In this document: positions 3,506 to 21,605 of the stretch, one piece after another
Position numbering within the stretch: position 1 is the stretch's first letter
How the letters are laid out: each line of letters starts with the position of its first letter
Assembly: GCA_035531755.1 (NCBI GenBank)
Contig: DATKSK010000030.1
Location: 1-64,000 of the forward strand
Origin: Acidimicrobiales bacterium
GTDB taxonomy: Bacteria; Actinomycetota; Acidimicrobiia; Acidimicrobiales; UBA8190
DNA length: 64,000 nt
Direction: 5' to 3'
The notes under the pieces: model-generated
Database searches by the model: none
What the model saw: the letters and a program-made list of their open reading frames with translations, nothing else
Told to the model about the DNA's origin: nothing
Made by a program: the position numbers and the translations under genes

Positions 3506-3551
3506 TCATCCGGGCCGTGCGCGTCCGTGCGCCTCATCCGGGGGCCAAGTA

Positions 3552-3565
3552 TAGAACGTGTTCTA
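3552..3565. promoter_or_regulatory. KstR-type operator palindrome
   Basis: TAGAACGTGTTCTA is a 6+2+6 inverted repeat and matches the mycobacterial KstR consensus TnnAACnnGTTnnA at every fixed base. It lies 62 bases before the thiolase start and 75 bases before the divergent GH4 start, so it could control either gene. KstR is a TetR-family repressor of cholesterol and lipid catabolism genes; no regulator gene is present in the window. Confidence 0.7.
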
Positions 3566-3570
3566 CGTAC

Positions 3571-3610
3571 GCCGCCCGGCGGCGCCCGGCGGCGCCCGGC
3601 GGCGCCCCCG
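3571..3610. repeat. Tandem 10-bp GC repeat upstream of the GH4 gene
   Basis: About four units of GGCGCCCGGC (first and last slightly changed) sit in the divergent intergenic region between the palindrome at 3552 and the GH4 start. No function is visible. Confidence 0.7.
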
Positions 3611-3640
3611 TCCCCGAGGGTTCGGTGGAAGGATGAGGAC

Positions 3641-4987
3641 GTGCAGGTCACCATCATCGGCGGGGGCAGCTACCAGTGGGCACCCACGCTGATCACCGAC
3701 CTCCTCGGCACCCCGTCACTGGCGGGGATGCACCTGGTCCTGGAGGACATCGACCCGGCACCGCTCGAGAAGATGGCGGCGATCGCCGGCATCGCCGACG
3801 ACAAGCTGGGCGCCAAGTCCACGGTGTCCACCACGACCGACCAGCGCCGCGCGCTGGAGGGCGCCGACTTCGTCGTGGTGACGATCTCCACCGGCGGGTT
3901 CGACAGCATGGCCGTCGACCTCGACGTGCCCGCCCGCCACGGCATCCGCCAGTCGGTGGGCGACAGCGTCGGACCAGGCGGGATCAACCGGGCCCTGCGG
4001 AACATCCCCGTCCTGGCCGGTATCGGCCGCGACATGGAGGAGATCTGCCCCGACGCCTGGCTCCTCAACATCACCAATCCGATGACCACGCTCACCCGCA
4101 CGGTGTGCCGGGAGACCTCGGTGAAGACGGTCGGGCTGTGCCACGAGGTGGGCAACTTCGCCATGGTCCTGGCGATCGCCTTCGGCAAGCCTCATACCGC
4201 CATCCGCCCGGTCGTGGCCGGCGTCAACCACTTCCCGGTCATCTGCGACCTCGAGATCGACGGGGCGGAGGGCTTCGCGCAGATCGCCGAACTGGTGGAC
4301 GAGCTCGGCGGCCTCGACGCCATCGCCCCCGACCCGGCGCGCCCCGAGCCCGAGCCCTTTACCAAGCTCGACTTCGCCGTGCACCACGTGCTCAAGCTCG
4401 CCATGCTCGACCGCTACGGCGCGCTGCCCGGCGCCAACGACCGCCACCTGGCGGAGTTCGTGCCGTCGGTGCTCACCGAGGCGTCGGGGTGGGGGGCGGC
4501 GTGGGGCATCGAGCTGACGTCGATCGCCCAGCGCCAGAAGCACCAGGACGAGTACGTGGCCGGGGTCGACGACGTGCTGGCCGGCAAGGAAGAGCTCCCG
4601 ACCTGGGACTCGGGCGAGCTGGTGGCGCCGGTGATCGACTCGCTCGTGACCGGCACCCGGCGCGAGCTGCCGCTCAACCTCCCCAACACGGGTCAGTGCC
4701 CGGACCTCCCGCTCGACGCCGTCGTGGAGTCCATGTGCGTGGTGGACGGTGACGGCATGCGCGGGCGCGACGTGGCCCGGCCGCCCGCGGCACTGGCCGA
4801 GCTGCTGCGGCGCCACGCCGCTGTCCAGGAGATGACGGTGGAGGCCGGGCTGAGCGGCGACCGCGGCCTGGCCCACGCCGCCTTCGCCCTCGACCCGCTG
4901 GCGGGCCGGGGCGACCTGCACGACACCGAGACCATGGTCGACGAGCTGCTGGCGGGGACCGCACAGTGGCTCCCGCAATTCGCGTGA
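3641..4987 (+). CDS. Glycoside hydrolase family 4 (NAD-dependent alpha-glycosidase type)
   Basis: GH4 enzyme of 448 residues, typical for the family, which hydrolyses glycosides by NAD+-dependent oxidation and elimination with a bound divalent metal. Visible are the dinucleotide motif IIGGGS at the N-terminus, VGDSVGPGGI, LLNITNPM, the metal/catalytic CHEV motif and the second metal ligand in GVNHFP. CHxV-type motifs are found in GH4 enzymes acting on unphosphorylated alpha-glycosides, while phospho-glycosidases usually show CN.P or CDMP; the substrate is therefore probably a free alpha-glycoside. Start is GTG 3641, preceded by GGAAGGA. It is first in an operon with the dehydrogenase, aldolase, kinase and LarA genes. 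A paralogue lies at 20220-21605. Confidence 0.88.
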   Translation: MQVTIIGGGSYQWAPTLITDLLGTPSLAGMHLVLEDIDPAPLEKMAAIAGIADDKLGAKSTVSTTTDQRRALEGADFVVVTISTGGFDSMAVDLDVPARHGIRQSVGDSVGPGGINRALRNIPVLAGIGRDMEEICPDAWLLNITNPMTTLTRTVCRETSVKTVGLCHEVGNFAMVLAIAFGKPHTAIRPVVAGVNHFPVICDLEIDGAEGFAQIAELVDELGGLDAIAPDPARPEPEPFTKLDFAVHHVLKLAMLDRYGALPGANDRHLAEFVPSVLTEASGWGAAWGIELTSIAQRQKHQDEYVAGVDDVLAGKEELPTWDSGELVAPVIDSLVTGTRRELPLNLPNTGQCPDLPLDAVVESMCVVDGDGMRGRDVARPPAALAELLRRHAAVQEMTVEAGLSGDRGLAHAAFALDPLAGRGDLHDTETMVDELLAGTAQWLPQFA

Positions 4988-5886
4988 GCCCGATTCGCGT
5001 GAAGGTCGGCTTCGTCGGGTTGGGTGCCATGGGCCTACCCATGGCACGGAATCTCGTGGAGGCCGGGCACCATGTGACGGTGGCCTCGCGCAGCCGACCG
5101 CCGGTCGACGAGGCCGTGGCCTTCGGCGCAGCCGACGGTGGCACCCTCACCGACGTGGCCGCGGCCAGCGAGGTCCTCGTCCTGTGTGTCCCCAGCTCCC
5201 CCGACGTCGTGCAGGTGGTCGACGCCGTGCTCCCCGCCCTGGGCCCGGGCACCATCGTGGTCGACTGCTCCACCATCGACCCCGACGTCGAGCGGGCGCA
5301 ACACGAGCGCGTCAACGCCACCGGCGCGCGCTACCTCGACGCCCCGGTGTCGGGCGGCACCGTGGGCGCCAAGAACGGGACCCTGACGCTGATGGTGGGC
5401 GGCGACGAGACGACCCTGGCGGATGCCACGCCCGCTCTCCAACCCATGGCCGGCCTCATCGTGCACGTGGGCGGCCCGGGGATGGGCCAGGTCGTGAAGC
5501 TCTGCAACAACCTGATCTACGCGGCGCAGATGGTGGCCACGGCCGAGGCCACCGCGCTGGCGGTTCGCTCGGGGGTGGACATGGCGAAGCTCCTCGAGGT
5601 GCTGCTCCACTCGACCGGCGACTGCACCGCCGTGCGCACGCGGCTGCCGGTCCCCGGCGTGGTCGCCGACAGCCCCGCCTCCAACGGGTGGAAGCCGGGG
5701 TTCATGACCGACCTCATGGCGAAGGACCTCGACCTCGCCCTGTCGTACGGGGCCCGGGCCGGCGTCCCCATGACCACCACCGCCACGGCGCGCCAGGCAC
5801 TGACGGCGGCGGCGACGGCCGGGTTCGGGCGCGAGGACTTCTCGGCGTTGGCGAAGGTGGTGCTCCGCCTGGCCGGCGTGGAGTGA
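4984..5886 (+). CDS. NAD(P)-dependent beta-hydroxyacid dehydrogenase (HIBADH family)
   Basis: Member of the 3-hydroxyisobutyrate / tartronate semialdehyde / threonate dehydrogenase family, about 300 residues. The Rossmann motif GFVGLGAMG stands at the N-terminus, the substrate motif DAPVSGGTVGAKNG in the middle, the catalytic Lys in KLCNN near residue 172, and KDLDLAL in the helical domain. The chosen GTG overlaps the GH4 stop as GTGA; GTG codons at 4966 and 4999 are in frame and also possible. In sugar-acid catabolic operons such enzymes oxidise a 2- or 3-hydroxyacid before decarboxylation or cleavage. Here the context (GH4, kinase, aldolase, LarA) points to a sugar-acid intermediate, which is inference. 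Confidence 0.85.
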   Translation: MSPIRVKVGFVGLGAMGLPMARNLVEAGHHVTVASRSRPPVDEAVAFGAADGGTLTDVAAASEVLVLCVPSSPDVVQVVDAVLPALGPGTIVVDCSTIDPDVERAQHERVNATGARYLDAPVSGGTVGAKNGTLTLMVGGDETTLADATPALQPMAGLIVHVGGPGMGQVVKLCNNLIYAAQMVATAEATALAVRSGVDMAKLLEVLLHSTGDCTAVRTRLPVPGVVADSPASNGWKPGFMTDLMAKDLDLALSYGARAGVPMTTTATARQALTAAATAGFGREDFSALAKVVLRLAGVE

Positions 5887-6692
5887 AGCGGGCCCCGATG
5901 GGCGCGCTCGAACCTCCCGTGGTCATCCTCGCCGCCGACCACCGCGCCCGGGGGGTCATGACGGTCGAGCACTACGCGCGCTACCTGGACGCGCTGCGCG
6001 CCGCCCTGCCGAGCTGCGACGGGGTCCTGGCGAGCACCCAGCCGCTGCGCGACCTGGCGGCCGTCGGCGCGCTCGGGCCCCGGCACCGCACGTACCTCTC
6101 CATCAACCGCACAGGACTGGCGGGGAGCGTGTTCGAGCTCGATGATCGTCTCGTGGCGAGCGTAGCGGGCGCTGCGGCCGAGGGATGGACCGGCGTGAAG
6201 CACATGACGCGCATCGACCTGTCGGACTCCATGACGGCGCCGGCCCTCGAGCTGCTGGGGCGGGTGCTGGAGGAGGCGCGTGCCGCCGGACTGGAAGCGC
6301 TCGTCGAGCCGTTGTCGTGGCGCGACGGGCACGTGGCCCGTGACACCGACTCGATCGTCCTCGCCGCCGTGGTCGCCCACGACATGGGCGCGCCCGTGCT
6401 CAAGGTGCCGGTCCCCGACGCCGCCCCGGGCGCAGCGCGCGTCGACGCCGTGGCCCGCGTCGTGGCCAGCGTCGGGGTGCCCGTCCTGTTCCTCGGTGGG
6501 CCTCGCGTCGAGCCCGCCGGGGGGCGTCGCGGCACGGCAGGCGACGTGCGCGGCGCCAGGGAAGCGGTGCTGGCCGAGGTGCGCGACGCCATGGACGGCG
6601 GCGGTGCCGGGCTGGCGGTGGGGCGCGTCGTGTTCCAGGACCCCGAGCCGGGGGTCATGGCCGGTCTCGTGGCCGACGCCGTCCGGGGATGA
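5883..6692 (+). CDS. Class I aldolase, FbaB/LacD/Cgl0159-like TIM barrel
   Basis: 269-residue protein with the pattern of class I (Schiff-base) aldolases of the DhnA/FbaB/LacD group: ILAADHRARG near the N-terminus, SINRTGL, GVKHMTRID and LKVPVP. The Lys of LKVPVP, about residue 174, is the expected Schiff-base residue. It should cleave a (phosphorylated) keto-sugar or keto-acid into two smaller pieces. The start GTG 5883 overlaps the dehydrogenase stop (GTGA); an ATG at 5898 is an alternative. Its stop overlaps the kinase start (ATGA). The coupling to an FGGY kinase suggests that the kinase product is its substrate. The exact sugar is unknown. Confidence 0.75.
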   Translation: MKRAPMGALEPPVVILAADHRARGVMTVEHYARYLDALRAALPSCDGVLASTQPLRDLAAVGALGPRHRTYLSINRTGLAGSVFELDDRLVASVAGAAAEGWTGVKHMTRIDLSDSMTAPALELLGRVLEEARAAGLEALVEPLSWRDGHVARDTDSIVLAAVVAHDMGAPVLKVPVPDAAPGAARVDAVARVVASVGVPVLFLGGPRVEPAGGRRGTAGDVRGAREAVLAEVRDAMDGGGAGLAVGRVVFQDPEPGVMAGLVADAVRG

Positions 6693-8209
6693 TCCTGACG
6701 ATCGACCTCGGCACCAGCGTCACCAAGGCGGCGCTGTGGCGGGACGACGGCCTGGCCGCCGTCGGGCGGGCACCGCTCGAATGCCAGTACGGACCCGGCA
6801 ACCGCGTCGAGCAGGATCCGGGGTCCTGGTGGCCCTCCGTCGTGGCCGCGTGCGAGGCGGCCCGGGCCGGCGCCGGTGGTCGCGGTCGTGGTCGTGGTCG
6901 TGGTCGTGGCGATGCGGTGCGGGCGCTGGGCTTCTCGGCGGCACGGCAGACGTTCGTCCCTGTGTCGGCGGCGGGGGTGCCGCTCGGGACGGCCATGGTG
7001 TGGTCGGACCGGCGGGCGGGCGCCGAAGCGGCGGCGCTGGCGGCATCGTGCGGGGGCGCGTCGCCGGTCCGGGAGCAGACGGGCGTCGTGCTCGACGCCG
7101 CCTCTGTGGCGGCCAAGGTGGCGTGGCTCGAGCGCCACGAGCCGGAACGACTCCGCCAGGCCCGGTGGCTGCTGTCGCCCCGGGACCTGCTGGCATGGCG
7201 GCTGACCGGCGAGGTGTGCACCGACCGCACCCTGGCTTCGGCGACCGGGATGTACGACGACACCGGTCGGGCGGTGCCGGCGCTCGTGGGCGATTCGGGC
7301 GACCGGCTCCCGGCGGTACACCCGTCGGACAGCGTGGTCGGCGCCCTCCTCGCTGGCCCCGCCGCCGAGCTCGCCCTCCCCCCCGGCATCCCGGTCGTCA
7401 TCGGCGCGGGCGACCGCGCCTGCGAGGTCCTCGGGGCGGGCGCCTCGGCCGAGCGGCCGATGGTGTCGTGGGGGACGACGGCGAACGTGTCGGTGCCGGC
7501 GGCACACCGCCCCCACCCGGCTCCGGATGCCATGATCGTCACGCGTGGCGCGCTGGGCGGGTGGCTGCTCGAAGGAGGCCTGTCGGCCGCGGGATCGCTC
7601 GTCGCCTGGCTGGCGCGCCTGACGGGGCTCGACGCCGACACGCTGTTGGCGCGGGCCGCGGTGAGCCCACCGGGGGCACGTGGCGTCGTCGCCCTGCCGT
7701 GGTTCGGTGGGGCGCGCGCCCCCTGGTGGCGCGACGGGGCGCGCGGCGCGCTGACGGGCCTTTCCCACGACCACGACGCCGGCGACCTGGCGCGCGCCGT
7801 CGTCGAGTCGGTCGCCTGGGACGTGGCGCGGTGCCTCGGTTCGGCACACGGGTCGTTCGAGGGGCTGGTCCTCGGCGGGGCGGGCGCCGCCGCCGCGGTG
7901 TGGGTCGACGTCCTCACCGCGGTGACGGGCCTGGCGGCGAGCCGTCGACTGTCGGGGGAGGCGGCTTCGGCGGGCGCGGCGATGGTGGTCGCCCGCGCCG
8001 TCGGCTCGCCGCTCGATCTCGACCGCTTCGACCCTGTCGTCGCCGAGACGCACCCCGACGAGTCGTGGGCCGAGCGCTATCGCGCCCTGCGCCCGCGTGT
8101 CGACGAGGCCGCCACGGCGATCATCGGGATCGGGGCCCGGGACGGGGACGGGGCCGGGGCCGGGGCCGGGGGCGGGGACGGGGCCGGGGGCGGGGAGGTG
8201 GGCCCGTGA
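6689..8209 (+). CDS. FGGY-family carbohydrate kinase
   Basis: Sugar or polyol kinase of 506 residues, in the usual size range. The N-terminal phosphate loop DLGTSVTKAAL starts at residue 6, followed by ARQTFVPV, WSDRRAGAEA and LSPRDLLAWRLTGE. The C-terminal lobe has GAGDRACEVLGAG, whose Asp is the expected catalytic base, SWGTTANVSV and LVLGGAGAAAAVW. ATG 6689 overlaps the aldolase stop. Two low-complexity stretches are odd: an Arg-Gly run at about residues 64-74 coded by GGTCGT hexamers, and a Gly/Ala/Asp tail at the C-terminus. Both look like replication-slippage insertions at tolerated surface positions. Closest recognisable relatives are xylulokinase-like FGGY enzymes; the substrate is not determined. 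Confidence 0.88.
   Translation: MILTIDLGTSVTKAALWRDDGLAAVGRAPLECQYGPGNRVEQDPGSWWPSVVAACEAARAGAGGRGRGRGRGRGDAVRALGFSAARQTFVPVSAAGVPLGTAMVWSDRRAGAEAAALAASCGGASPVREQTGVVLDAASVAAKVAWLERHEPERLRQARWLLSPRDLLAWRLTGEVCTDRTLASATGMYDDTGRAVPALVGDSGDRLPAVHPSDSVVGALLAGPAAELALPPGIPVVIGAGDRACEVLGAGASAERPMVSWGTTANVSVPAAHRPHPAPDAMIVTRGALGGWLLEGGLSAAGSLVAWLARLTGLDADTLLARAAVSPPGARGVVALPWFGGARAPWWRDGARGALTGLSHDHDAGDLARAVVESVAWDVARCLGSAHGSFEGLVLGGAGAAAAVWVDVLTAVTGLAASRRLSGEAASAGAAMVVARAVGSPLDLDRFDPVVAETHPDESWAERYRALRPRVDEAATAIIGIGARDGDGAGAGAGGGDGAGGGEVGP
6878..6910 (+). repeat. In-frame GGTCGT hexanucleotide microsatellite
   Basis: One GGTCGC and four GGTCGT units followed by GGC code for an Arg-Gly run in the N-terminal lobe of the FGGY kinase. 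A change in copy number would keep the reading frame. Confidence 0.9.
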
Positions 8210-9498
8210 AGCACGTCCGGCTCGAGTACGGCCGACACGGCCTCGTGGCCGAGGTGCCCGACGACGCCGTCGTGGTGACGGCCACCGACCTGCCGGGGCT
8301 CCCCGACGAGGCCGGCGCCGTCGTGGCCGCGCTGCGTGCGCCGGTGGCCGGGCCGTCCCTCGACGAACTGGTCGGGGCGGCTCGGGGCGCGACGGCGCGT
8401 CCGCGTGTGGCCGTGGTCTTCCCGGACGTGACGCGGCCCATGCCCAACCGGACCGTGCTGCCTCCGCTCCTGGCCGAGCTCGAGCGGCTCGGCATGGGGC
8501 CCGAGCACGTGGAGCTGCTGTGCGCCACGGGCACACACCGCGTGGCGACGCCCGACGAGATGGTGGAGCTGATCGGTCCCGAGATCGCCCGCCGGTACCG
8601 CGTCCACCAGCACCGCGCCGGCGGGGCCGGGCCGGCGCCGGCCGACACGCACGTCGAGGTGGGGCGGGTCGACGGGGCTGCGGTCCGGCTCGACCGCCGC
8701 TACGTCGAGGCCGACGTGCGCATCCTCACCGGGTTCGTCGAGCCCCATTTCTTCGCGGGCTTCAGCGGCGGTCCCAAGGGCGCATGCCCGGGCCTGGCCG
8801 CGCTGGAGACGGTCCTCGAAGCGCACAGCCCGGCCCGGATCGCCGACCCCAGGGCGACGTGGCTCGTCACCGAGGGGAACCCCGTCCACGACTTCGTGCG
8901 GTCGGCCGTGGCGCTGGCCCCGCCGACGCTTTCGCTCGACGTCGCCATCAACGGCACGCGCCGGATCACCGCGGTGTTCGCCGGCCCGTTGCCCGACGGA
9001 CACGCGGCGGCCTGCCACTTCGTCGAACAGACGGTGGTGCAGCACGTGGACGACCGCTTCGACGTGGTCCTGAGCACGAACGGCGGCTACCCGCTCGACC
9101 GCAACCTGTACCAGGCGGTCAAGGGCATGGCGGCGGCCGAGCGCGTCGTCCGGCCGGGCGGGACGATCGTCATGGCGGCGGCGTGCACCGACGGCACCCC
9201 CGGCGGCGGCGCATTCGCCCGCCTGCTCGGCGGCGCCCGCGGGCCCGACGCGCTCGACACCGTCGACGGCCCGTCCGAGACGGACCGCTGGCAGACGCAG
9301 GTGCTGGGCCGCGTCCTGCGGCGGGCGGACGTGTGGATACACGCCGAGGGCCTGGCCGAGGACGAGGTGCGGGCCGCGTTCCTCCGCCCCGTCGCCGACG
9401 TCTCGGCTGCGGTGGCGGAGGCCCTCGGTGCCGCGGGGCCGGGCGCCCGCCTGTGCGTGCTGCCCTTCGGCCCGCTCACCGTCGCCTCCGCTCCCTGA
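8206..9498 (+). CDS. LarA-family nickel-dependent 2-hydroxyacid racemase/epimerase
   Basis: 430-residue member of the lactate racemase (LarA) superfamily, which uses a nickel pincer nucleotide cofactor to racemise or epimerise the C2 of hydroxyacids including sugar acids. His111 (in GTHR), His181 and Lys191 (in EPHFFAGFSGGPKG) and His207 (in LEAHSP) correspond to His108, His174, Lys184 and His200 of Lactobacillus plantarum LarA, with identical spacings of 10 and 16 for the last three. The TRP motif of the N-terminal domain is also present. The Lys carries the cofactor and the last His binds nickel in LarA. Start GTG 8206 overlaps the kinase stop and has GGGGAGG 7 bases upstream. The cofactor-making larB, larC and larE genes are not in the window. 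Confidence 0.88.
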   Translation: MKHVRLEYGRHGLVAEVPDDAVVVTATDLPGLPDEAGAVVAALRAPVAGPSLDELVGAARGATARPRVAVVFPDVTRPMPNRTVLPPLLAELERLGMGPEHVELLCATGTHRVATPDEMVELIGPEIARRYRVHQHRAGGAGPAPADTHVEVGRVDGAAVRLDRRYVEADVRILTGFVEPHFFAGFSGGPKGACPGLAALETVLEAHSPARIADPRATWLVTEGNPVHDFVRSAVALAPPTLSLDVAINGTRRITAVFAGPLPDGHAAACHFVEQTVVQHVDDRFDVVLSTNGGYPLDRNLYQAVKGMAAAERVVRPGGTIVMAAACTDGTPGGGAFARLLGGARGPDALDTVDGPSETDRWQTQVLGRVLRRADVWIHAEGLAEDEVRAAFLRPVADVSAAVAEALGAAGPGARLCVLPFGPLTVASAP

Positions 9499-9563: not shown

Positions 9564-11804
9564 ATGTCGGGAACGGGTGAGCGGCTCGTCGGGGAGGGGG
9601 CAGCGGCCCTGTACGGCGGGGACGAACCGCTGTTCGCGTTCACGGTCCCCGACGAGCTGCTCCAGGAGGCCGTCAGCAAGAGCCGGCACAAAGAGGCGAT
9701 AGCCGACGTCGCCCTCATGCCCGGTGTCGGAGAAGGCAAACCGCCACCCCTGCGGGGGATCCTGCGTACGAGCGGCTACGCCCCACTCGTCCTGCTCACC
9801 CTGGCGGCCATCGTCCCGAACATGTTCGGCCAGGGCATCAACCTGATCGGCAACAACCTCGAGCAGTCGTTCCACCTCCACGATGCCGGCCTCGGGGCCG
9901 TCGCCTTCGTGGCGTCCGTGGCCCAGCTGCTGTGGGCGGTGCCCCTCGGCCTGTGGGCCGACCGTGGCAGCCGCAAGCTCGTGTCGGCCCTGGCTCTTCT
10001 CGTCTTCGCCGTGCTGGCCCCGCTCATGGCGCTGGCCCCCAACGTGTGGTGGTTCGTCGTGTTGTACCTGCTGGCCGCGGTCGGAAGCGCGGTGAACAAC
10101 ACGGTGCACAACTCCTACCTCGCCGACGCCTACCCGACCGAGGGGCGCAGCCGCGTCTTCAGCTGGCACTACCTCAACGACCCCGTCGCCCAGACCCTGG
10201 GCATCCTGGTCTTCGGGGGGATCGTGGCGCTGACCAACAACTGGCGGTGGGGTTTGGCGGTGGGGGCGGCAGGCATCCCCATCGGGCTGCTGCTCTTCAC
10301 CATCAGGGAGCCCGACAAGGGCACCAACGAGTCGAGCCACATCCTGAAGGCCTCGGGCATGGACATCCACTCGGAGCAGGAGCACACCCCCCGCGTCCTG
10401 CTGGGCCCGGCCATCACCCGCCTGCTGCGCATCCGCTCGCTCTACTACGAGCTGGTGGCCGTGGCGGTGCTGGGCTTCGTCGGAGTCAGCGCGTCGCTGT
10501 TCGGCAACCTTTATTTCGTGCGCGTGTGGCATCTGCACACTGCTGACCGCAGCCACGTCTACGCCATCATCGGGTTGAGCGCCTTCATCGGGCTCCCGAT
10601 CGCCTACTCGGTCGGGGACAGGCTCTTCCGCCGCAACCCGCAGGCACCATTGATCCTGGCAGGGGCCAGCATCACCGTGTACGGCCTCCTGTTCACCGTG
10701 TCGCTGTACATGCCGAGGCTGTGGCTGGTGGTGGCGTTGCAGTTCCTCGCCAACGCGGCCGTCGCACCGATTGCCATCGCCATCTTCCAGACGCTGGCGG
10801 CCACGGCCCCGCCCGAGATGCGGTCGATCTGTTTCGCCATGTTCGGCGTCTACTCGGCCGTGTTCGGAGGGTTCGCGGGGGGCATCATCCTCGGCGCCAT
10901 CAGCGATGCCAGCAACGTCACGACGGCGCTGACGTTCATCGGGCCGGTGTGTGCGCTCGGCGGTGCGCTGCTGGTGGTGGGGTCACGCTTCGTCCGCCGG
11001 GACATCACCCTCGTCATCGAGGACGTCCTGGAGCGGTACGCCGAGGGCAAGCGCCGGCAGTCCGGCGGGGCCATCCCTGCGCTGCAGATCCACAACATGG
11101 ACTTCTTCTACGGGACGCAGCAGGTCCTCTTCGACGTCAACCTCGAAGTGCCCGAGGGTGAGATCGTGGCGCTCCTCGGCACCAACGGCGCCGGGAAGAG
11201 CACCTTGCTGCGGGCCGTGTCGGGCCTCGACCACCCCCACCGGGGCGTGATCCGCATCTTCGGGACCAACTGCACCTACCTGGAGCCCGAGCAGGTCATC
11301 GATCTGGGCGCAGCGCTGCTCGTCGGCGGCAAGATGACGTTCCCGGGCCTCACCGTCCGGGACAACCTGCGCATCGGCGAGCACTCCTTCCGCCGCGAAT
11401 TGCCCAGGGCCCGGGCCGCGTTCGACGACGCCATCGGGCTGTTCCCCGAGCTCGAGGCGCGCATCGACCAGCCGGCGGGCACGCTGTCGGGAGGCGAGCA
11501 GCAGATGCTCGCCCTGGCGCGCGTCATGATGACCAAGCCCCGACTGCTCTTGATCGACGAGCTCGCCTTCGGCCTGGCCCCGATGACGGTGGAGCGGCTC
11601 ATGGGGATCGTGAGGCGCGTGAACGCCGAGGGCGCCACCGTCGTCCTCGTCGAGCAGAGCGTGAACCGCGCCATGACGCTCGCCGAGCGCGCCTTCTTCC
11701 TCGAGCGTGGTGAGGTTCGGTTCGACGGCTCGATCTCGGAGCTCCTGGGGCGCGACGACCTCCTGCGGCCCGTGTTCCTGGCCGGGGCGGGTGGCGACGC
11801 ATGA
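9564..11804 (+). CDS. MFS permease fused to a LivF-type ABC ATPase
   Basis: 746-residue fusion. Residues 1-60 are polar; about residues 70-490 form an MFS permease with roughly 12 membrane segments (for example ADRGSRK between segments 2 and 3). About residues 510-746 are an ABC ATPase of the LivF type with Walker A GTNGAGKST near 539, signature LSGGEQQ near 640 and Walker B LLLIDE near 660. The downstream genes encode LivH-LivM and LivG, so this protein supplies the second ATPase of that transporter and adds a second permease. ATG 9564 follows GAGGCGG. How the MFS half takes part in transport is unknown; an exchanger linked to, or a second route for, the same substrate is possible. The stop overlaps the next start (ATGA). 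Confidence 0.9.
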   Translation: MSGTGERLVGEGAAALYGGDEPLFAFTVPDELLQEAVSKSRHKEAIADVALMPGVGEGKPPPLRGILRTSGYAPLVLLTLAAIVPNMFGQGINLIGNNLEQSFHLHDAGLGAVAFVASVAQLLWAVPLGLWADRGSRKLVSALALLVFAVLAPLMALAPNVWWFVVLYLLAAVGSAVNNTVHNSYLADAYPTEGRSRVFSWHYLNDPVAQTLGILVFGGIVALTNNWRWGLAVGAAGIPIGLLLFTIREPDKGTNESSHILKASGMDIHSEQEHTPRVLLGPAITRLLRIRSLYYELVAVAVLGFVGVSASLFGNLYFVRVWHLHTADRSHVYAIIGLSAFIGLPIAYSVGDRLFRRNPQAPLILAGASITVYGLLFTVSLYMPRLWLVVALQFLANAAVAPIAIAIFQTLAATAPPEMRSICFAMFGVYSAVFGGFAGGIILGAISDASNVTTALTFIGPVCALGGALLVVGSRFVRRDITLVIEDVLERYAEGKRRQSGGAIPALQIHNMDFFYGTQQVLFDVNLEVPEGEIVALLGTNGAGKSTLLRAVSGLDHPHRGVIRIFGTNCTYLEPEQVIDLGAALLVGGKMTFPGLTVRDNLRIGEHSFRRELPRARAAFDDAIGLFPELEARIDQPAGTLSGGEQQMLALARVMMTKPRLLLIDELAFGLAPMTVERLMGIVRRVNAEGATVVLVEQSVNRAMTLAERAFFLERGEVRFDGSISELLGRDDLLRPVFLAGAGGDA

Positions 11805-13846
11805 TCGCCGTGTCCCTCCCCCCGTCCGTGATCCTCGAGGGAGCGATCCTCGGGCTCAACTACGGGCTGCTGGCGGTCGGCCTGGCACTCATCTACCGGA
11901 CCAGCCGTGTCGTCAACTTCGCCCAGGGACAGCTGGGCGTGGTGGCGGCCGTCTTCCTCGTCAAGCTCTACTACGACTTCGGGATCGACTACTGGGCCGC
12001 GGCGGTGGCGGCCATCGGCCTGGCGGCCGGGGCCGGTGCGCTGTCCGAGCTCGTCCTGCGCCGCCTGTTCGCCCGTCCCCGCGTCATGGTCATGGTGGCC
12101 ACGATCGGGCTGTCGCAGGTCCTGTTCCTCTTCACGCTCTTGCCGTTCATCCGCCCCAAGAAGCTCTTCCGGGCCTTTCCGGTCCCGGTCAGCTGGTCGT
12201 TCCACATCGGGACCTTCCTCTTCCCCCCCGGCGACGTCCTGACGCTCATCGTGGCGCCCGTGGTCGCCCTCGGCCTCGCCGCCTTCATCCGCTTCTCCCC
12301 GTGGGGCCTGGCCATGCGGGCGTCCGCCGAGAACATGGAGTCGGCGCGCCTGTCGGGCGTCTGGGTCCGACGCACCTCCACCGTCGCCTGGACCATCGCC
12401 GGCGCGCTGTCGGCGATCACCGCCATCCTGGCCTCGCCCGCCCAGACGAGCGCCCTCACGCAGGTTCTCAGCCCCGGGCTCCTCCTCCTGGCCCTGCTGG
12501 CCGCCCTGCTCGGCGCCATGGTGAGCCTGCCGGTGGCCTTCGCCGCCGGTGTGGGGGTCGGCATCGTGCAGGACCTCCTGCAGTGGAACATCACGAACCC
12601 CTCCACCGGGACGGCCACCGTCGAGCTGATCCTCTTCGTCCTCCTGCAGGCCGCCCTGCTGGTACGGGCGGCGTCGCTGCAGAAGGGCACGCGCACCGCC
12701 GAGCGCACGTCGTGGATGTCGGGGACGATGTCGTTCCGGCGGGTGGGTGAAGGGCTGCGCGACCGCGTCGGGACCGCCGGGGTGCTGGCCACGGTGGTGG
12801 TGGCCGCGTTGCTGCCCCTGACGTTGAGCGTGGGGCGCTCGTTCCTCATGTCGCAGATCTGCATCTACGGTGTCATCGCCCTTTCCCTGACGGTGCTCAC
12901 CGGGTGGGCCGGCCAGGTGTCGCTGGGGCAGTTCGCCCTGGTGGCGGTGGGGACGGACATGACCGCCCACCTCGGGTCCGGCATGCCCCTCGTGCTCCTC
13001 CTGCCGTTCGCGGGGGTGGTGACGGCAGTGGTGTCGGTCCTGGTGGGGCTCACCGCCCTGCGCATCCGCGGCCTGTACCTGGCCGTGAGCACGCTCGGGT
13101 TCGCCCTGTTCATGCAGACGTCGGTGCTGGCCACCCCGTGCTGGACCGTGCCGCTCCTGCACCGCAGGATCTGCTCGGGCCTGCCTGATCCCCAGTCGAC
13201 GCTGATCGCGCGCCCGACGCTGTTCGGGCTCGGGCTCACCTCGGAGCGCGCCTTCGCCTGGTTCTCCTTGGCGGTGCTGGTGCTGTCGGTACTCATGGTG
13301 CGGGTCTGGCGCGACAGGGGCATCGCCCGCCGGTTGATCTCCGTGCGCGACAACGAGGTGGCCGCCGGCGCGGCGGGCATCCCCATCATCCGCACGAAGC
13401 TCATGGCCTTCGCGCTGTCGGGGTTCATGGCCGGCTATGCCGGGGTGTGCCTGGCCTTCGCCACGGAGCGGTTCAGCACCGACACCTTCGACCCGACGTT
13501 CTCGATCCTGGTGGTCTCGATGGTCGTGATCGGCGGCCTCGACTCGATCCCCGGCGCGCTGCTGGGGGCGGTGTACCTCGTCGGGCTGCCCGCCGTCTTC
13601 GGGACCACCACGACCATCCAATTCCTCACGAGCGGCATCGGGCTCATGGCGTTCATCCTCTACCTGCCGGGTGGCATGGCCGAGGTGATGCACCGGCTGG
13701 GGGACCTCGTCACGGCCGGCGTGGTCCGACGCAAGGCCCGGTGGCGGGGTGGGGCGCCGGCGGGGATCGGTGGGAGGGGCGCCGCGCCCGACGCCCGGAT
13801 GTCTCCCGCCACGGACGCCGGGACCGTGGCCGAGGCCACCACGTGA
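11801..13846 (+). CDS. Fused LivH-LivM permease of a branched-chain-amino-acid-type ABC transporter
   Basis: 681-residue membrane protein that joins the two permeases of the HAAT family. Residues 1 to about 290 are LivH-like (LNYGLLAVGLALIYRTSR, VVNFAQGQLG). Residues about 310 to 640 are LivM-like (YGVIALSLTVLTGWAGQVSLGQ, then VRDNEVAAGAAGIP, the cytoplasmic loop that contacts the ATPase). The tail is short and polar. ATG 11801 overlaps the previous stop. Fused LivHM proteins occur in actinobacteria. The HAAT family carries amino acids, urea, amides and other small organic molecules, so the family alone does not prove amino acid transport. Confidence 0.92.
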   Translation: MIAVSLPPSVILEGAILGLNYGLLAVGLALIYRTSRVVNFAQGQLGVVAAVFLVKLYYDFGIDYWAAAVAAIGLAAGAGALSELVLRRLFARPRVMVMVATIGLSQVLFLFTLLPFIRPKKLFRAFPVPVSWSFHIGTFLFPPGDVLTLIVAPVVALGLAAFIRFSPWGLAMRASAENMESARLSGVWVRRTSTVAWTIAGALSAITAILASPAQTSALTQVLSPGLLLLALLAALLGAMVSLPVAFAAGVGVGIVQDLLQWNITNPSTGTATVELILFVLLQAALLVRAASLQKGTRTAERTSWMSGTMSFRRVGEGLRDRVGTAGVLATVVVAALLPLTLSVGRSFLMSQICIYGVIALSLTVLTGWAGQVSLGQFALVAVGTDMTAHLGSGMPLVLLLPFAGVVTAVVSVLVGLTALRIRGLYLAVSTLGFALFMQTSVLATPCWTVPLLHRRICSGLPDPQSTLIARPTLFGLGLTSERAFAWFSLAVLVLSVLMVRVWRDRGIARRLISVRDNEVAAGAAGIPIIRTKLMAFALSGFMAGYAGVCLAFATERFSTDTFDPTFSILVVSMVVIGGLDSIPGALLGAVYLVGLPAVFGTTTTIQFLTSGIGLMAFILYLPGGMAEVMHRLGDLVTAGVVRRKARWRGGAPAGIGGRGAAPDARMSPATDAGTVAEATT

Positions 13847-14694
13847 GCCCGAAGGCCGAGCACGAGGGGCCCGCCCGCCTCGAGATCCGCGACCTCGTCG
13901 TGGCGTTCGGCGGCCTCCGGGCGGTCGACGGTGTGAACGTCACCGTCGAGCCGGGCTCGATCGTGGGCCTCATCGGGCCCAACGGATCGGGGAAGACGAC
14001 GCTGCTCGACGCCGTATCCGGCCTGGTGGTGCCGGCGCCGGGGACCCTCCTCCTCCTCGACGGCGAGGACCTCGCGGACTACCTCCCCGAGGAGCGCGCC
14101 GCGCTCGGCGTGGTCCGGTCGTTCCAGGACTGCCGGCTGTACCCCGAGCTGAGCGTGGAAGACACGTTGCTGCTGTGCGAGGACGCCCGGCGGCGGGTGG
14201 GCGTGCTGTCGACGACGCTCCAGATGCCCTGGGCGCGCCGGTCCGAGCGCGATAAGCGGCGCGCCGTGGACCGCGCCATCGCCTCGTTCGGGCTGGAGCG
14301 CTTCCGCCACCATATGACCGGGCACCTCTCGACGGGGACGCGGCGGGTGGTCGACCTGGCGTCCATCGTCCTCGCCGGCCCTCGCCTTCTCCTCCTCGAC
14401 GAGCCCACGGCCGGGATCGCCCAGCGCGAGGCCGAGGCGTTCATCCCGCTCCTGCGCCGGCTCCACGACGTGACCGGCGCGACCATCCTCCTCGTCGAGC
14501 ACGACGTCCCGCTCGTGTTCGAGTTGTGCTCGACCGTGGTGGTGATGCAGACGGGGACGGTCGTGGCGTCGGGGAGCCCCGACGTGGTGCGCGAGGACCC
14601 CCGTGCGCTGGCCGCCTACCTGGGGGCGAGCGACGAGGCGCTTCACGTCACCGGGCCGGTCCACACCCCGGGCCCGGCGGGCACGACGCCCTGA
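13843..14694 (+). CDS. livG: LivG-type ABC transporter ATPase
   Basis: 283-residue ATPase that should pair with the LivF domain of the MFS fusion at the LivHM permease. Walker A GPNGSGKTT is at residues 45-53, the Q-loop in RSFQDCRLYP, and Walker B LLLLDEPTAGI in the C-terminal half. The signature reads LSTGTRR rather than LSGGQ; this variant is usual in actinobacterial LivG proteins. Start GTG 13843 overlaps the LivHM stop (GTGA). The gene converges on the TauD-like gene with only 15 bases between stops. Confidence 0.9.
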   Translation: MSPKAEHEGPARLEIRDLVVAFGGLRAVDGVNVTVEPGSIVGLIGPNGSGKTTLLDAVSGLVVPAPGTLLLLDGEDLADYLPEERAALGVVRSFQDCRLYPELSVEDTLLLCEDARRRVGVLSTTLQMPWARRSERDKRRAVDRAIASFGLERFRHHMTGHLSTGTRRVVDLASIVLAGPRLLLLDEPTAGIAQREAEAFIPLLRRLHDVTGATILLVEHDVPLVFELCSTVVVMQTGTVVASGSPDVVREDPRALAAYLGASDEALHVTGPVHTPGPAGTTP

Positions 14695-14709: not shown

Positions 14710-15555
14710 CTACAGGCGGGCGGGGCCGAAGGGGCGGTCGCCTCGCAGCGTGACCCGGTGGGCGATGCGCAGTGCCTGCCCGTAGTCGTCGAGCGCGTAG
14801 TGGAGCGTCGCCCGGTTGTCCCAGAATGCCACCGCGCCCACCTCCCACCGGTACCGGCAACTGAATTCGGGCCGTTGGCAGTGGCGGTACAGCATGTCGA
14901 GGAGGGAGTCGCTCTCGATCTTGGAGACGCCCTCGACGAAGCGCGTGAACTGCGAGTTGACGAACAGGCCGTTGCGCCCCGTCTCGGGATGTGTCCTGAC
15001 CACGGGATGCGACACCGGATAGAGCTTCTCGTGCCACGTTCCGTCCCACTCGTAGCCGCCCTTGGCGTCGACGTCCGCCGCGAACCACGGGTCGTGGTGC
15101 CAGGCCACGAGCGTGTCGCACAGGGCGCGCACCGGCTCGGACAGCGCGTCGTAGGCCGCCTGCAGGCTGACCCACATGGTGTCGCCCCCGACGTCGGGTG
15201 CCTCGCGCATGTGGAGGATCGAGCCGAGCGGCGGGGTCTCCAGGAAGGTGACGTCGGTGTGCCACCACGACGCGCGGTCCTCCCGGCCGTCGATCGGCAG
15301 CACCTCGGGATGCCCTTCGAGGGAGGGGATCACGGGGTGCGCCGGCGTGACCTCGCCGAACTGCCTGGCGAAGTCGGCCTGCTTCTCCGGGGAGAGGTCC
15401 TGTCCGGGGAAGAACAACACGAGATGCCGGCACAGCGCGGCACGCACCTCCGCCACGACCGCGTCGCCCAGCGGCTTGGAGAGGTCGAGCCCGCGCACCT
15501 CGGCGCCCACGTTCGGTGAGACCGCCCTGATGTCGAGCCCCGTCGCCACGTCCAC
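14710..15555 (-). CDS. TauD/TfdA-family Fe(II)/2-oxoglutarate dioxygenase
   Basis: 281-residue dioxygenase that should hydroxylate a small organic acid, with 2-oxoglutarate decarboxylated to succinate. The iron ligands His99 and Asp101 are in WWHTDVTF; the distal His and the 2-oxoglutarate-binding Arg are in AHRVTLRGD near the C-terminus. I chose GTG 15555 because homologues start shortly before the conserved VGAEVRGLDLS; a TTG at 15591 is an alternative. The gene sits reversed between livG and the binding-protein gene. Family members act on taurine, alkyl sulfates, 2,4-D or carnitine precursors. The location suggests that it acts on the imported compound, which is inference. Confidence 0.85.
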   Translation of the reverse strand: MDVATGLDIRAVSPNVGAEVRGLDLSKPLGDAVVAEVRAALCRHLVLFFPGQDLSPEKQADFARQFGEVTPAHPVIPSLEGHPEVLPIDGREDRASWWHTDVTFLETPPLGSILHMREAPDVGGDTMWVSLQAAYDALSEPVRALCDTLVAWHHDPWFAADVDAKGGYEWDGTWHEKLYPVSHPVVRTHPETGRNGLFVNSQFTRFVEGVSKIESDSLLDMLYRHCQRPEFSCRYRWEVGAVAFWDNRATLHYALDDYGQALRIAHRVTLRGDRPFGPARL

Positions 15556-15644
15556 GCCGACAATGGTGCCCCAGGCCCGACCCCGCCACAAGCAGCCCCG
15601 GGACGCATATCGTGTGGCGCACGGGCGGACGGAAGGGGCGGAGG

Positions 15645-17192
15645 ATGGCGAGCGGGCGTCCTGGGGCGGTCCTGAAGCGGTCCTGGCGTCGACTGCGCCG
15701 CCGGCCTCCCGGCATGCAGGTCGGGGCCCTCGTCCTGGTCCTCGCCGTCGTGGGCGGTGCCGTCTACGGGGTCACGGCCGGCACGTCCTCGAGCACGTCC
15801 TCGAGCACGGGCTCGAGCGGGACGACGAGCGGCGGTGCCGGGGCAGGTTCGGGCGCCAACGGGTTGGGCGCACCGAGTGGTGTCGGCGTGAACCAGGCGT
15901 CGACGAGCAGCCGGGGCGTGACCGCGACGTCGATCAACGTGGCGTTCCCCGTGTCGAACCTGACGTCGCTGGCGTCGAACTTCGGCTTCGCCGGTGACAC
16001 CGAGTTCGCCGCCCAGCCCGCCGCCATCCACACCTTCGTGAACGCCGTCAACGCCGCCGGCGGCATCAACGGCCGGAAGATCAACCCGATCATCGTGCAT
16101 TTCGACCCGACCAGCGAGACGAACATGCGGTCCCTGTGCAAGCAGTGGACCGAGGGGAGCCCCCCTGTCTTCGCGGTGATCGACGGGATCGGGTCGTGGA
16201 CCGGTGACAACGAGCTGTGCGTCACGCAGGAGGGGCACACGCCGTTCATCGGGCAGTGGACGACGGTGACCAACTGGACGCAGCAGGGCGCTCCCTACCT
16301 ATGGTGGACGGGCCCAGACCAGTCGCAGATCCTCAGCACCGTCGTGGCCTGGGGCACGAACTCGGGCCTGCTCGGAAACTCGCCGAGGGTCGGCATCGTG
16401 GCGGGCGACCGCACGAGCGACCAGGTGGCCCTGAACCAGTACCTCTTGCCCGACCTGCGGCGAGCCGGCATCACCGACCCGCTCGTGGAGACGCTGCCCT
16501 CGAATCCCACCGACACCGCCGCCAGCAACGCCGCGGCGCCGCTGGTGGTGCAGCGGCTCAAAACCGCCGGCGTCCAGTCCGTGATCCCGCTCATGCCGTT
16601 CAACTCGTTCTTCCCGTTCCTCTCCCAGGAGAACGCACAGGACTACTTCCCGAAGCTCCTCCTGTCGGACTACGAGTCATCGATCCAGGTGGCCCTCGGC
16701 CTCATCCCGATCCCGTACGAGAAGGGCCTCGAAGGCCAGGAAGGCGTCACCGTCGAGACGCTCGGAGGCACCGACGCCGCCGTCCCCGAGAGCGAGGGCG
16801 GCTACAACCCCGGCGTCAGCAGCTGCTACGACACCTGGAAGGCCCACAACAAGCCGACCGACCCGTCGGTGTCCCCCTACATCGAGGAGCAGGGACCGAT
16901 CGTCGGATGGTGCCAGGGCATCCGCCTGTTCGCCCGGGCGGCGACGAACGCGGGGCGCAACCTCACCCGCCGGACCTTCGTCCAGGCGATGGCGGGCATC
17001 CAGAACTTCCCCGGGACCTACACGCCGACCCTCAGCTACGGGCCGGACAAGTACGCCGGGCCCACCCAGTACCAGATCGTGCAGCTGCACAACAACGTGC
17101 CGCCGTCGGCGCTGTGCGTGCCGACCTACACGGGCAAGCCGCAGGGCACCTGCTGGCACGTGGTCCAGACCTGGGCGCCCCTTGCCGGCTGA
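15645..17192 (+). CDS. Membrane-anchored periplasmic-binding-type substrate receptor (HAAT family)
   Basis: 515-residue extracytoplasmic receptor expected to deliver substrate to the LivHM-LivG-LivF transporter. A basic N-terminus and one hydrophobic segment at about residues 25-48 are followed by a Ser/Gly-rich linker and a two-lobe type I binding domain (NVAFPVSNLTS, NAAGGINGRKI). No lipobox Cys follows the hydrophobic segment, so the protein seems held by an uncleaved membrane anchor rather than by lipid. ATG 15645 has AAGGGG and GGAGG just upstream. The last 11 bases overlap the next reading frame. The distant form of the binding domain does not reveal the ligand. Confidence 0.85.
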   Translation: MASGRPGAVLKRSWRRLRRRPPGMQVGALVLVLAVVGGAVYGVTAGTSSSTSSSTGSSGTTSGGAGAGSGANGLGAPSGVGVNQASTSSRGVTATSINVAFPVSNLTSLASNFGFAGDTEFAAQPAAIHTFVNAVNAAGGINGRKINPIIVHFDPTSETNMRSLCKQWTEGSPPVFAVIDGIGSWTGDNELCVTQEGHTPFIGQWTTVTNWTQQGAPYLWWTGPDQSQILSTVVAWGTNSGLLGNSPRVGIVAGDRTSDQVALNQYLLPDLRRAGITDPLVETLPSNPTDTAASNAAAPLVVQRLKTAGVQSVIPLMPFNSFFPFLSQENAQDYFPKLLLSDYESSIQVALGLIPIPYEKGLEGQEGVTVETLGGTDAAVPESEGGYNPGVSSCYDTWKAHNKPTDPSVSPYIEEQGPIVGWCQGIRLFARAATNAGRNLTRRTFVQAMAGIQNFPGTYTPTLSYGPDKYAGPTQYQIVQLHNNVPPSALCVPTYTGKPQGTCWHVVQTWAPLAG

Positions 17193-19385: not shown

Positions 19386-20171
19386 TCACGCCCACCCGAG
19401 CGCCGACGCCGACGCCGCGTCGAGGTGCAGCTCGACGTTGTCCCGGGTGCGCAGGATCGAGGCGGGGCAGTCCGTGGAGACCGGGCCCGTCAGGGCTGCC
19501 CGCACCGGCGCGGCCTTGCGCTGCTCCGGGACCACCGCCAATACCCGGCGCGCTCGCAGGAGGGCGGGTATGGTCACCGTCAGGGCGTGCCTCGGCACAG
19601 CGTCGATGTCCGGGAAGTGCCCCTCGTTCACCTGCTGCAGTCGGCAGGCGCCATCGAGCTCGACCACCTTGACGTCGACGGGGTCGTCGAAGTCGGCCAC
19701 CGGCGGGTCGTTGAAGGCGAGGTGCCCGTTCTCGCCGATGCCCACGCAGCACAGGTCGAGCGGGTTGCGCCGGAGCAGCTCGGCGTAGCGGTCGCATTCC
19801 GTCGCGGGATCGGCGAGGCCGTCGACGTAGTGGGCCGCGCGGGGATGCACTCGGTCGGAGATGCGCTCCCGGATCCAGCGTTGGAACCCGGCGGGGTGGT
19901 CCGGGCCCACCCCCTCGTACTCGTCCATGTGGAAGACCACCACGTCGGCCCACGGGACATCGGGGGTGGCGGTGGCGAGCATGTCGACGAACTCGAGCTG
20001 GGAGTTCCCGGTGGCGAACATGGCGTTGGCGACACCCCCTGCCACCACCGCGTCGCGGATGGCGGCGGCGGCGGCGTCCGCCGCCGCCCGCGCCATCGAG
20101 GCGGTGTCGGGATGGGCCCACACGCGCAGGCGGTCGACGGTGCGCTGCTGTGCTCCGGCCATGCGAGGCAT
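19386..20171 (-). CDS. nagB: Glucosamine-6-phosphate deaminase
   Basis: 261-residue sugar-phosphate isomerase/deaminase that should convert glucosamine 6-phosphate to fructose 6-phosphate and ammonia. The family signatures are present: FHMDEYEGV (Asp of the active site), GIGENGHLAFNDP with the catalytic His, and LTVTIPALLRARRV. ATG 20171 and ATG 20162 are both possible; the first is used. It is divergent from the second GH4 gene with 48 bases between, and precedes the propeller lipoprotein. The 6-phosphogluconolactonase relatives lack the GENGHLAFNDP combination, so NagB is the better call, though a related amino-sugar phosphate could be the true substrate. Confidence 0.88.
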   Translation of the reverse strand: MPRMAGAQQRTVDRLRVWAHPDTASMARAAADAAAAAIRDAVVAGGVANAMFATGNSQLEFVDMLATATPDVPWADVVVFHMDEYEGVGPDHPAGFQRWIRERISDRVHPRAAHYVDGLADPATECDRYAELLRRNPLDLCCVGIGENGHLAFNDPPVADFDDPVDVKVVELDGACRLQQVNEGHFPDIDAVPRHALTVTIPALLRARRVLAVVPEQRKAAPVRAALTGPVSTDCPASILRTRDNVELHLDAASASALGWA

Positions 20172-20207
20172 GGTAGGTGACGGCAGGCACGGTCGGTGTG
20201 GTCGCGG

Positions 20208-20219: not shown

Positions 20220-21605
20220 GTGATGGGGGCGCGGATCACACTGGTCGGCGGTGGCAGCACCCACTGGACACCGCTGCTCATGGTGGACTTTGCCAACACC
20301 CCCGCGCTGCGCGACGCCGACGTGGTCCTCCTCGACCTCGACCCCGACTCCCTGCCGCCCGTGTTGAAGCTGGTCGAGCACATCGCCGAGCGACGTGGGA
20401 TCGGTCTCCGGGCGCGGGGGACGACCGACGTCGACGACGCCATGGCCGGGGCCGAATTCGTGATCGCGGGATTCTCCGTCGGCGGGTTCGCCAGCATGCG
20501 GCACGACATCGAGATCCCGGCCCGGTTCGGGATCCGCCAGACCGTCGGCGACAGCGTCGGGCCGGGCGGGATCTCCCGGGCGCTGCGCAGCGTGCCGGTG
20601 ATCCTGGACGTGGCCCGCGCCATGGAACGGCACTGCCCCGAAGCGCTGCTCGTCAACGTCAGCAATCCCCTGACGGCGCTGTGCCGCGCCGTCACCCGGG
20701 AGACGGCCATCCGCACCGTCGGCCTGTGCGCGGAGATCGTCGGCCTCAAGTTCGTCCTGAGCCTCCTCTTCGACGCCGACTTCAATTCGATCGACCCCGT
20801 CGTCGCCGGGGTCAACCACCTGCCGCTCGTGACCTCCCTCCGCATCAGCGACCGGGACGGGTTCGCCATGCTGCGCAGTGCCCTCGACGGCGAGCTCGAC
20901 CTGTCAGCGACGATGTGGATGGAGCCACCCGCCGCCATGCACTGGAAGATGGGCGACACCGACCACGGATGGGCCAAGTCCGACATCCTGTCGAACAACA
21001 AGGTGAAGTTCGAGCTGTTCCGCCGCTTCGGGGTCCTGCCGGGGTCGTCGGACACCCATGTGGTCGAGTTCTTCCCGGGCTTCGTCACCCCGGCGTCCGA
21101 CTACGGCCGCGACTGGGGGATTCACCACTACGGCATGCACGGCCACCGCTCGGACAAGACCGACGACGACGCCGCCATGGCCACCCTGCTGGCCGCAGAG
21201 GCCATCCCCACGTGGCCCTCGGGCGAGTTCGTCGCATCGCTGCTCGAGGGACTGGTCACGGGCGAGGACCGGGACCTGCCCGCGAACCTCCCCAACGCCG
21301 GGCAGGTGGGGAACCTGGCCGACGACGTGGTCGTGGAGTGCATGGCGGTGGCCGGCACGGGTGGGGTGCGCGCCCGGGACCGGGCGAGCGTGCCCACGTA
21401 CCTCGGCGAGCACCTCCGCCGGGTCGTGAGCTCGCAGGAGCTCACCGTCGAGGCAGCGGTACGCGGGGACCCGGCCACGGTCGTGGAGGCGATGCTCGCC
21501 GACCCGCTCGCCGGTGCGCTGCCCTACGAGCACGTGGTGGCCATGACCGAGGAGCTCATCGCCGCCACCACCGCCTGGCTGCCCCAGTTCGCCACACAAG
21601 GCTGA
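20220..21605 (+). CDS. Glycoside hydrolase family 4, variant with CAEI motif
   Basis: 461-residue GH4 paralogue of the enzyme at 3641-4987: TLVGGGSTHW dinucleotide loop, VGDSVGPGGI, LLVNVSNPL and GVNHLP. At the metal/catalytic site the usual CHEV-type motif reads CAEI, keeping the Cys ligand but losing the adjacent His. The second metal ligand His in GVNHLP is kept. The enzyme should still bind NAD+, but its activity or substrate may differ from known GH4 groups. GTG 20220 (leaderless) or ATG 20223 is the start. It is divergent from nagB, which hints at an amino-sugar glycoside as substrate; that is inference. Confidence 0.85.
   Translation: MMGARITLVGGGSTHWTPLLMVDFANTPALRDADVVLLDLDPDSLPPVLKLVEHIAERRGIGLRARGTTDVDDAMAGAEFVIAGFSVGGFASMRHDIEIPARFGIRQTVGDSVGPGGISRALRSVPVILDVARAMERHCPEALLVNVSNPLTALCRAVTRETAIRTVGLCAEIVGLKFVLSLLFDADFNSIDPVVAGVNHLPLVTSLRISDRDGFAMLRSALDGELDLSATMWMEPPAAMHWKMGDTDHGWAKSDILSNNKVKFELFRRFGVLPGSSDTHVVEFFPGFVTPASDYGRDWGIHHYGMHGHRSDKTDDDAAMATLLAAEAIPTWPSGEFVASLLEGLVTGEDRDLPANLPNAGQVGNLADDVVVECMAVAGTGGVRARDRASVPTYLGEHLRRVVSSQELTVEAAVRGDPATVVEAMLADPLAGALPYEHVVAMTEELIAATTAWLPQFATQG

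Follow-up and report, generated by a model that had tools for sequence, protein, structure and literature searches.

A single open reading frame in the window, the 64,000-nucleotide stretch of an Acidimicrobiales contig analyzed here, encodes a permease of the major facilitator superfamily (MFS) joined covalently to the LivF-type ATPase of an ABC importer. No transporter superfamilies are larger than the MFS and ABC ones, whose members are usually regarded as distinct machines. The hybrid is real and is widespread in the class, and its putative workings are proposed here from sequence and predicted structure. We file the system as an ABC importer of the HAAT type whose ATPase bears an MFS permease, the MFS half being Spinster-like but lacking the proton network of the Spns proteins. 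Our preferred reading, which we hold tentatively and at somewhat less than even confidence, is that this half is a tethered, non-proton-coupled port beside a binding-protein-dependent LivFGHM importer, with both serving the same sugar acid, uronide or related compound.

The fusion gene (9564..11804, forward strand) begins with ATG and specifies 746 amino acids. Pfam detected both MFS_1 (residues 86-431, E = 7e-29) and ABC_tran (residues 523-666, E = 9e-27) in the one protein; none of the NCBIfam matches listed for it covers both halves, and the top matches to its C-terminal part are UrtE and LivF. The Spinster-like MFS domain (9741..10985, forward strand; residues 60-474) contains 12 predicted transmembrane (TM) helices and a motif A (ADRGSRK), which together place it in the MFS superfamily. 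It is followed by a linker (10986..11081, forward strand; residues 475-506) that is helical in the AlphaFold2 model, and then by the nucleotide-binding domain (11082..11783, forward strand; residues 507-740), which Pfam and NCBIfam assign to the LivF type and whose best Foldseek match is 1ji0. The model of the full protein (mean pLDDT 79.6) consists of 12 membrane helices (residues 73-474), a helix at residues 477-499, and an ATPase fold. As ATPase matches dominated the Foldseek search with the full model, a separate model of the MFS half was built and used for a second search; in it, TM12 runs into the linker as a single continuous helix (residues 459-499) that leaves the membrane.

The ATPase half carries a Walker A motif (GTNGAGKST, 11178..11204; residues 539-547) that is invariant in our alignment A2, an ABC signature (LSGGEQQ, 11484..11504; residues 641-647), and a Walker B motif with its catalytic glutamate (LLLIDE, 11544..11561; residues 661-666), all on the forward strand. 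Domain matches, motifs and model thus agree with the preliminary description of one frame in which about 12 MFS segments precede a complete ABC ATPase. At the H-loop position the fused LivF has a glutamine (VEQ), while its partner LivG has the H-loop histidine and a degenerate signature (LSTGT). From these residues, the composite ATP site made of the LivG Walker motifs and the LivF signature appears canonical, and the second site would be degenerate.

Directly downstream lie a fused LivH-LivM permease (11801..13846, forward strand; 681 amino acids), in which BPD_transp_2 occurs twice, and the LivG ATPase (13843..14694, forward strand), with ABC_tran and BCA_ABC_TP_C domains and LivG as its top NCBIfam match. 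The LivHM start overlaps the stop of the fusion gene (ATGA) and the LivG start overlaps the LivHM stop (GTGA), each by 4 bp, so that the three proteins are probably co-translated. The preliminary description had placed LivG and an itself fused LivHM downstream, and had proposed a domain search for MFS_1 plus ABC_tran in one protein and its neighborhood; the domains and coordinates bear this description out. A LivK-type solute-binding protein (15612..17192, forward strand; Peripla_BP_6) is conserved at 57-65% in five relatives (L041, L042, L045, L046 and L049), and its gene is directly 3' of LivG in L042, L045 and L046. In the window, a gene for a TauD-family dioxygenase (14710-15591, opposite strand) separates LivG from the binding protein, which is not the case in those three loci. 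The system therefore has LivF- and LivG-type ATPases, two BPD_transp_2 units and a LivK-type binding protein in its operon, as HAAT importers do, and it shares with its fused relatives an MFS permease at the N-terminus of LivF, adjoining LivHM and LivG, and no separate LivF.

Other genomes encode the fusion at 93%, 82%, and 65-72% identity; in deeper homologs, identity is approximately 22-37% for the MFS half and 49-59% for LivF. Counting that of the window, six genomes from the same family carry the MFS, and five have the fused frame intact, the sixth (L014) being cut by a contig end. A separate scan yielded 11 MAG contigs whose MFS is 65-93% identical and in every case joined to LivF (L039 is truncated where its contig stops, and L049 and G011 are one contig). 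With duplicates removed, the window clade comprises 14 relatives, or 15 members with the window. When the window is compared with L049, the 93% relative, the differences over linker codons 470-512 number 0, 0 and 21 in the first, second and third codon positions, respectively, and an uninterrupted fused frame is also present in the single-contig genomes G018, G022, G075 and G653. In L049 (3163-5787), the frame extends about 128 residues beyond the end of LivF, and the start of LivH lies some 400 bp farther on than its counterpart in the window. A frameshift or an error of assembly that merged two genes might be suspected from the draft, multi-contig state of the genome and from one locus (L146, in G461) where the neighboring MFS and LivF occupy different frames, with about 45 bp between them, but the same unbroken frame in many independent genomes, single-contig ones included, and the restriction of linker differences to third positions make it exceedingly improbable. 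For the same reasons we rejected a chance join. Of the two findings that the preliminary description had named as fatal to it, a sequencing error at the join is thus contradicted by some 14 relatives and by the substitution pattern; separately encoded halves are absent from close relatives, but do occur in a few distant ones (MFS alone at L148-L151 and L120, and the split pair at L146).

We surveyed the distribution of the hybrid with a profile (A1) spanning the MFS domain, the linker and the first part of LivF. At E ≤ 1e-60, matches occurred in 91 of the 296 genomes sampled from the class, about a third, and in 21 of the 396 from the phylum; three or four candidates were scored per genome, so copy numbers are undercounted. 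Most matches cover both MFS and LivF, and a minority end near the junction. Among 82 distinct MFS homologs, 50 are MFS-LivF double fusions, 24 are MFS-LivF-LivG triple fusions, and eight have no LivF in frame; further loci include solo MFS genes (L148-L151) and the pair at L146, which reflects either gene fission or an assembly frameshift. Layouts, compared in 40 genome loci with flanks and 10 others, fall into three recurring types: MFS-LivF with LivH-LivM and LivG, as in the window clade; MFS-LivF with LivH-LivM-LivG; and LivH-LivM with MFS-LivF-LivG. At nearly all loci with enough flank, LivH, LivM, LivG and one fused LivF occur in one operon, and no second LivF was seen in the MFS-LivF operons of these 50 loci. 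At L099, another complete Liv system lies close to the MFS-LivF operon. Among the best 5000 records of a search of public plasmids, only one (Embleya sp. NBC_00888, NZ_CP108785, which carries no gene annotation there) covers at least 80% of the protein; on it, the fusion is accompanied by LivH-LivM-LivG, a binding protein and a GH3 enzyme.

The two halves share a history. In a LivF tree of 81 rows, the fused sequences cluster, with a few unfused rows inside. An MFS tree of 92 rows, built by a quick method, gathers the family into a single clade that excludes most solo Spns-like relatives (SH-aLRT 99); within it, double and triple fusions fall into two main groups, and a few solo members are nested among them. 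Both trees recover the same main groups, and in each L015 neighbors the window clade. MFS and LivF distances are correlated (Mantel r = 0.873, p = 0.001, n = 72), a result also expected from shared vertical descent. The simplest reading of these sequences, suggesting rather than establishing it, is one ancient fusion followed by a few losses. With operons that lack another LivF and halves that share their descent, the earlier view that two permease types are linked through one LivF is right as anatomy. A probable secondary loss is found in the window's own genome (L002, contig C68, reverse strand), where, in a LivF-LivG paralog nested in the triple-fusion clade, the place of the MFS is taken by about 150 residues that include one hydrophobic helix and a proline-rich stretch; the loss implies that the ABC core can do without the MFS. 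No MFS was found in the frames seen of four other Liv systems of this genome (L003-L007). At L119 (G044), a distant unfused Spns-like MFS adjoins LivF, LivG and LivHM, and that LivF falls outside the fused clade, possibly reflecting an independent association of MFS and Liv genes.

Both profile and structural searches relate the MFS half to Spinster transporters. HnSPNS was the first match in a profile search against solved structures (E = 2.7e-36), followed by SPNS1, SPNS2 and DgoT, and Foldseek ranks 1-15 were all Spinster structures, with G6PT and DgoT next. In HnSpns, Asp41 and Glu129 act as proton switches together with Arg42 and Arg122 (PMC9440201). The window protein has F, G, Y and S at the Asp41, Arg42, Arg122 and Glu129 positions; it is nearest to Spns in fold and sequence but lacks this network. 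Asp41, Arg42 and Arg122 are absent in all 15 members of the window clade, making proton exchange less likely there, and Asp41 and Arg122 are retained in 23 of 24 triple fusions. Glu129 is absent from all 62 fused sequences examined and from 15 of 16 unfused ones. We considered loss of Glu129 as a marker of fusion and rejected it, as just one of the 16 solo relatives has this residue; since Glu129 is missing in solo relatives too, proton coupling through other residues is possible. The window clade does retain motif A and the equivalent of Hn Asp142, the charge-relay aspartate.

Within the window clade, the cavity helices (1, 4, 7 and 10) are more conserved than the outer helices (entropy 0.59 versus 0.90 bits, p = 0.002), a difference not seen in the set of other fusions (p = 0.23), although such conservation could reflect packing instead of transport. 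Three polar residues, Gln121, Asp206 and Glu296, were gained by the clade and are largely specific to it. MFS, LivH and LivM have diverged there at an equal pace (73%, 71% and 72% identity), and this pace and the cavity-helix conservation are as expected for a working permease. Few stretches of the clade's proteins are as conserved as the linker (entropy 0.44 bits), which is much more variable outside the clade (2.49 bits).

The genes upstream of the fusion, all on the forward strand, encode a GH4-family enzyme (3527..4987) whose closest solved relative is the alpha-galacturonidase LplD (E = 3.5e-55), an HIBADH-like dehydrogenase (4966..5886), a Cgl0159/DeoC-like aldolase (5838..6692, start uncertain), an FGGY sugar kinase (6689..8209), and a LarA-like protein of the nickel-dependent 2-hydroxyacid racemase family (8206..9498); the dehydrogenase, kinase and LarA-like assignments come from domain and NCBIfam matches. 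These five genes are kept in most relatives with enough flank. Together they point to a sugar acid or uronide as the probable substrate, and suggest one other than branched-chain amino acids or urea; a further hint is that DgoT, which is a galactonate transporter, and G6PT follow SPNS among the structural matches. A second GH4-family gene (20220-21602) and a gene for a glucosamine-6-phosphate isomerase-like protein (19389-20180) lie near the operon, and in the FGGY kinase low-complexity runs of Gly/Arg and of Gly/Ala/Asp occur internally and at the end (about 6850-6900 and 8130-8200). The fusions of other clades have terpene or lipid genes nearby (AtuA, linalool dehydratase/isomerase, P450, WS/DGAT), so substrates probably differ among clades. 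The MFS-LivF operons L082 and L085 adjoin AtuA/biotin carboxylase genes and a linalool dehydratase/isomerase-like gene, suggesting that these clades may take up terpenes.

In our preferred reading, the importer would consist of the binding protein, LivHM, LivG and a LivF synthesized at the C-terminus of a Spinster-like permease, and the assembled complex would thereby carry a second, covalently tethered membrane port. The MFS half of the window clade would act as a facilitator or exchanger, not coupled to protons, and would handle the same sugar-acid or uronide nutrient, or a product or ion moving with it, beside the ATP-driven LivHM route. Of these parts, we infer the assembly into one complex, the class of substrate and the facilitator or exchanger mode. 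That the fusion joins subunits of one complex is plausible because the other fusions of these operons (LivH-LivM, LivM-LivG and LivF-LivG) do so.

The other readings follow in order of decreasing probability. An unlikely but serious one is that the MFS half transports nothing and is a sensor or gate (a transceptor), binding the substrate or a metabolite and tuning the LivF ATPase and LivHM uptake through the TM12-linker helix. The loss of the Spns proton residues throughout the clade, the strong conservation of the linker, whose changes against the 93% relative are confined to third codon positions, the continuity of TM12 and linker in the MFS-only model, and a paralog (L002) that manages without an MFS would all suit such a role. 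A flux-less protein, however, accords poorly with the conserved motif A, charge-relay aspartate and cavity helices; moreover, the retention of Asp41 and Arg122 in triple fusions makes the family as a whole look competent for transport, and the linker is not as highly conserved outside the clade.

Also unlikely, and placed next, is a fusion of convenience, in which an independent MFS transporter of the same pathway became joined to the neighboring LivF with no mechanical coupling; the MFS and ABC halves could indeed work independently. Gene fusions are frequent in these operons, solo and split MFS genes exist (L148-L151, L120 and L146), the L119 lineage has an unfused MFS adjoining LivF, and in Rhodococcus jostii RHA1 separate ABC (CamABCD) and MFS (CamM) systems take up related cholate metabolites of one pathway (PMC8399759). 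Against mere convenience, the same MFS-LivF order persists in 74 distinct homologs, LivG moves between layouts while MFS and LivF stay joined, and selection on the clade's linker is strong.

We consider it doubtful that the system represents a hybrid class of primary and secondary transporter, in which LivHM and an MFS that has lost its Spns-type proton coupling would mechanically share the LivF/LivG cycle and ATP would drive or gate the MFS fold. Less probable still is an MFS half energized by that cycle as a primary-active pump beside LivHM, in the manner of ArsA and ArsB: the direct covalent link through a predicted helix, and a loss of proton residues that would suit a changed energy source, are countered by the presence in the operons of LivHM, the normal partner of LivF and LivG, and any coupling-helix-like feature of the MFS would be hypothetical.

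Comparison with known systems places the tethered-port reading in context. The branched-chain amino acid and urea importers LivFGHM and UrtABCDE likewise combine LivF and LivG, LivH and LivM, and a LivK-type binding protein in one operon, but here LivF has an N-terminal 12-TM MFS domain, LivH and LivM are fused, and the probable substrate is not an amino acid but a sugar acid or glycoside. The Spns proteins (HnSPNS, MsSpns, and human SPNS1 and SPNS2) are nearest to the MFS half in fold and sequence, sharing motif A, the Asp142-equivalent aspartate and a REP-x-xG stretch after TM6; in contrast to them, the MFS described here is fused to an ATPase, in addition to its substitutions in the proton network. 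The ArsA ATPase energizes the secondary carrier ArsB, so that there, too, a secondary-type permease is associated with an ATPase; however, ArsA is not an ABC protein, and ArsAB has neither a covalent MFS fusion nor a second ABC permease. The likeness to CamABCD and CamM, which are separate proteins rather than fused, is one of function. We found no paper on an MFS-ABC, ABC-MFS or LivF fusion in the open-access literature, which is weak evidence of absence.

The family thus presents an old and widespread union of MFS and ABC transporters, one clade of which lacks the Spns proton residues, and with it a direct approach to the question of whether an MFS permease can be driven, gated or read out by an ABC ATPase. 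As general domain models name just one half of the protein, what many uncultured actinobacteria can take up may be misjudged.
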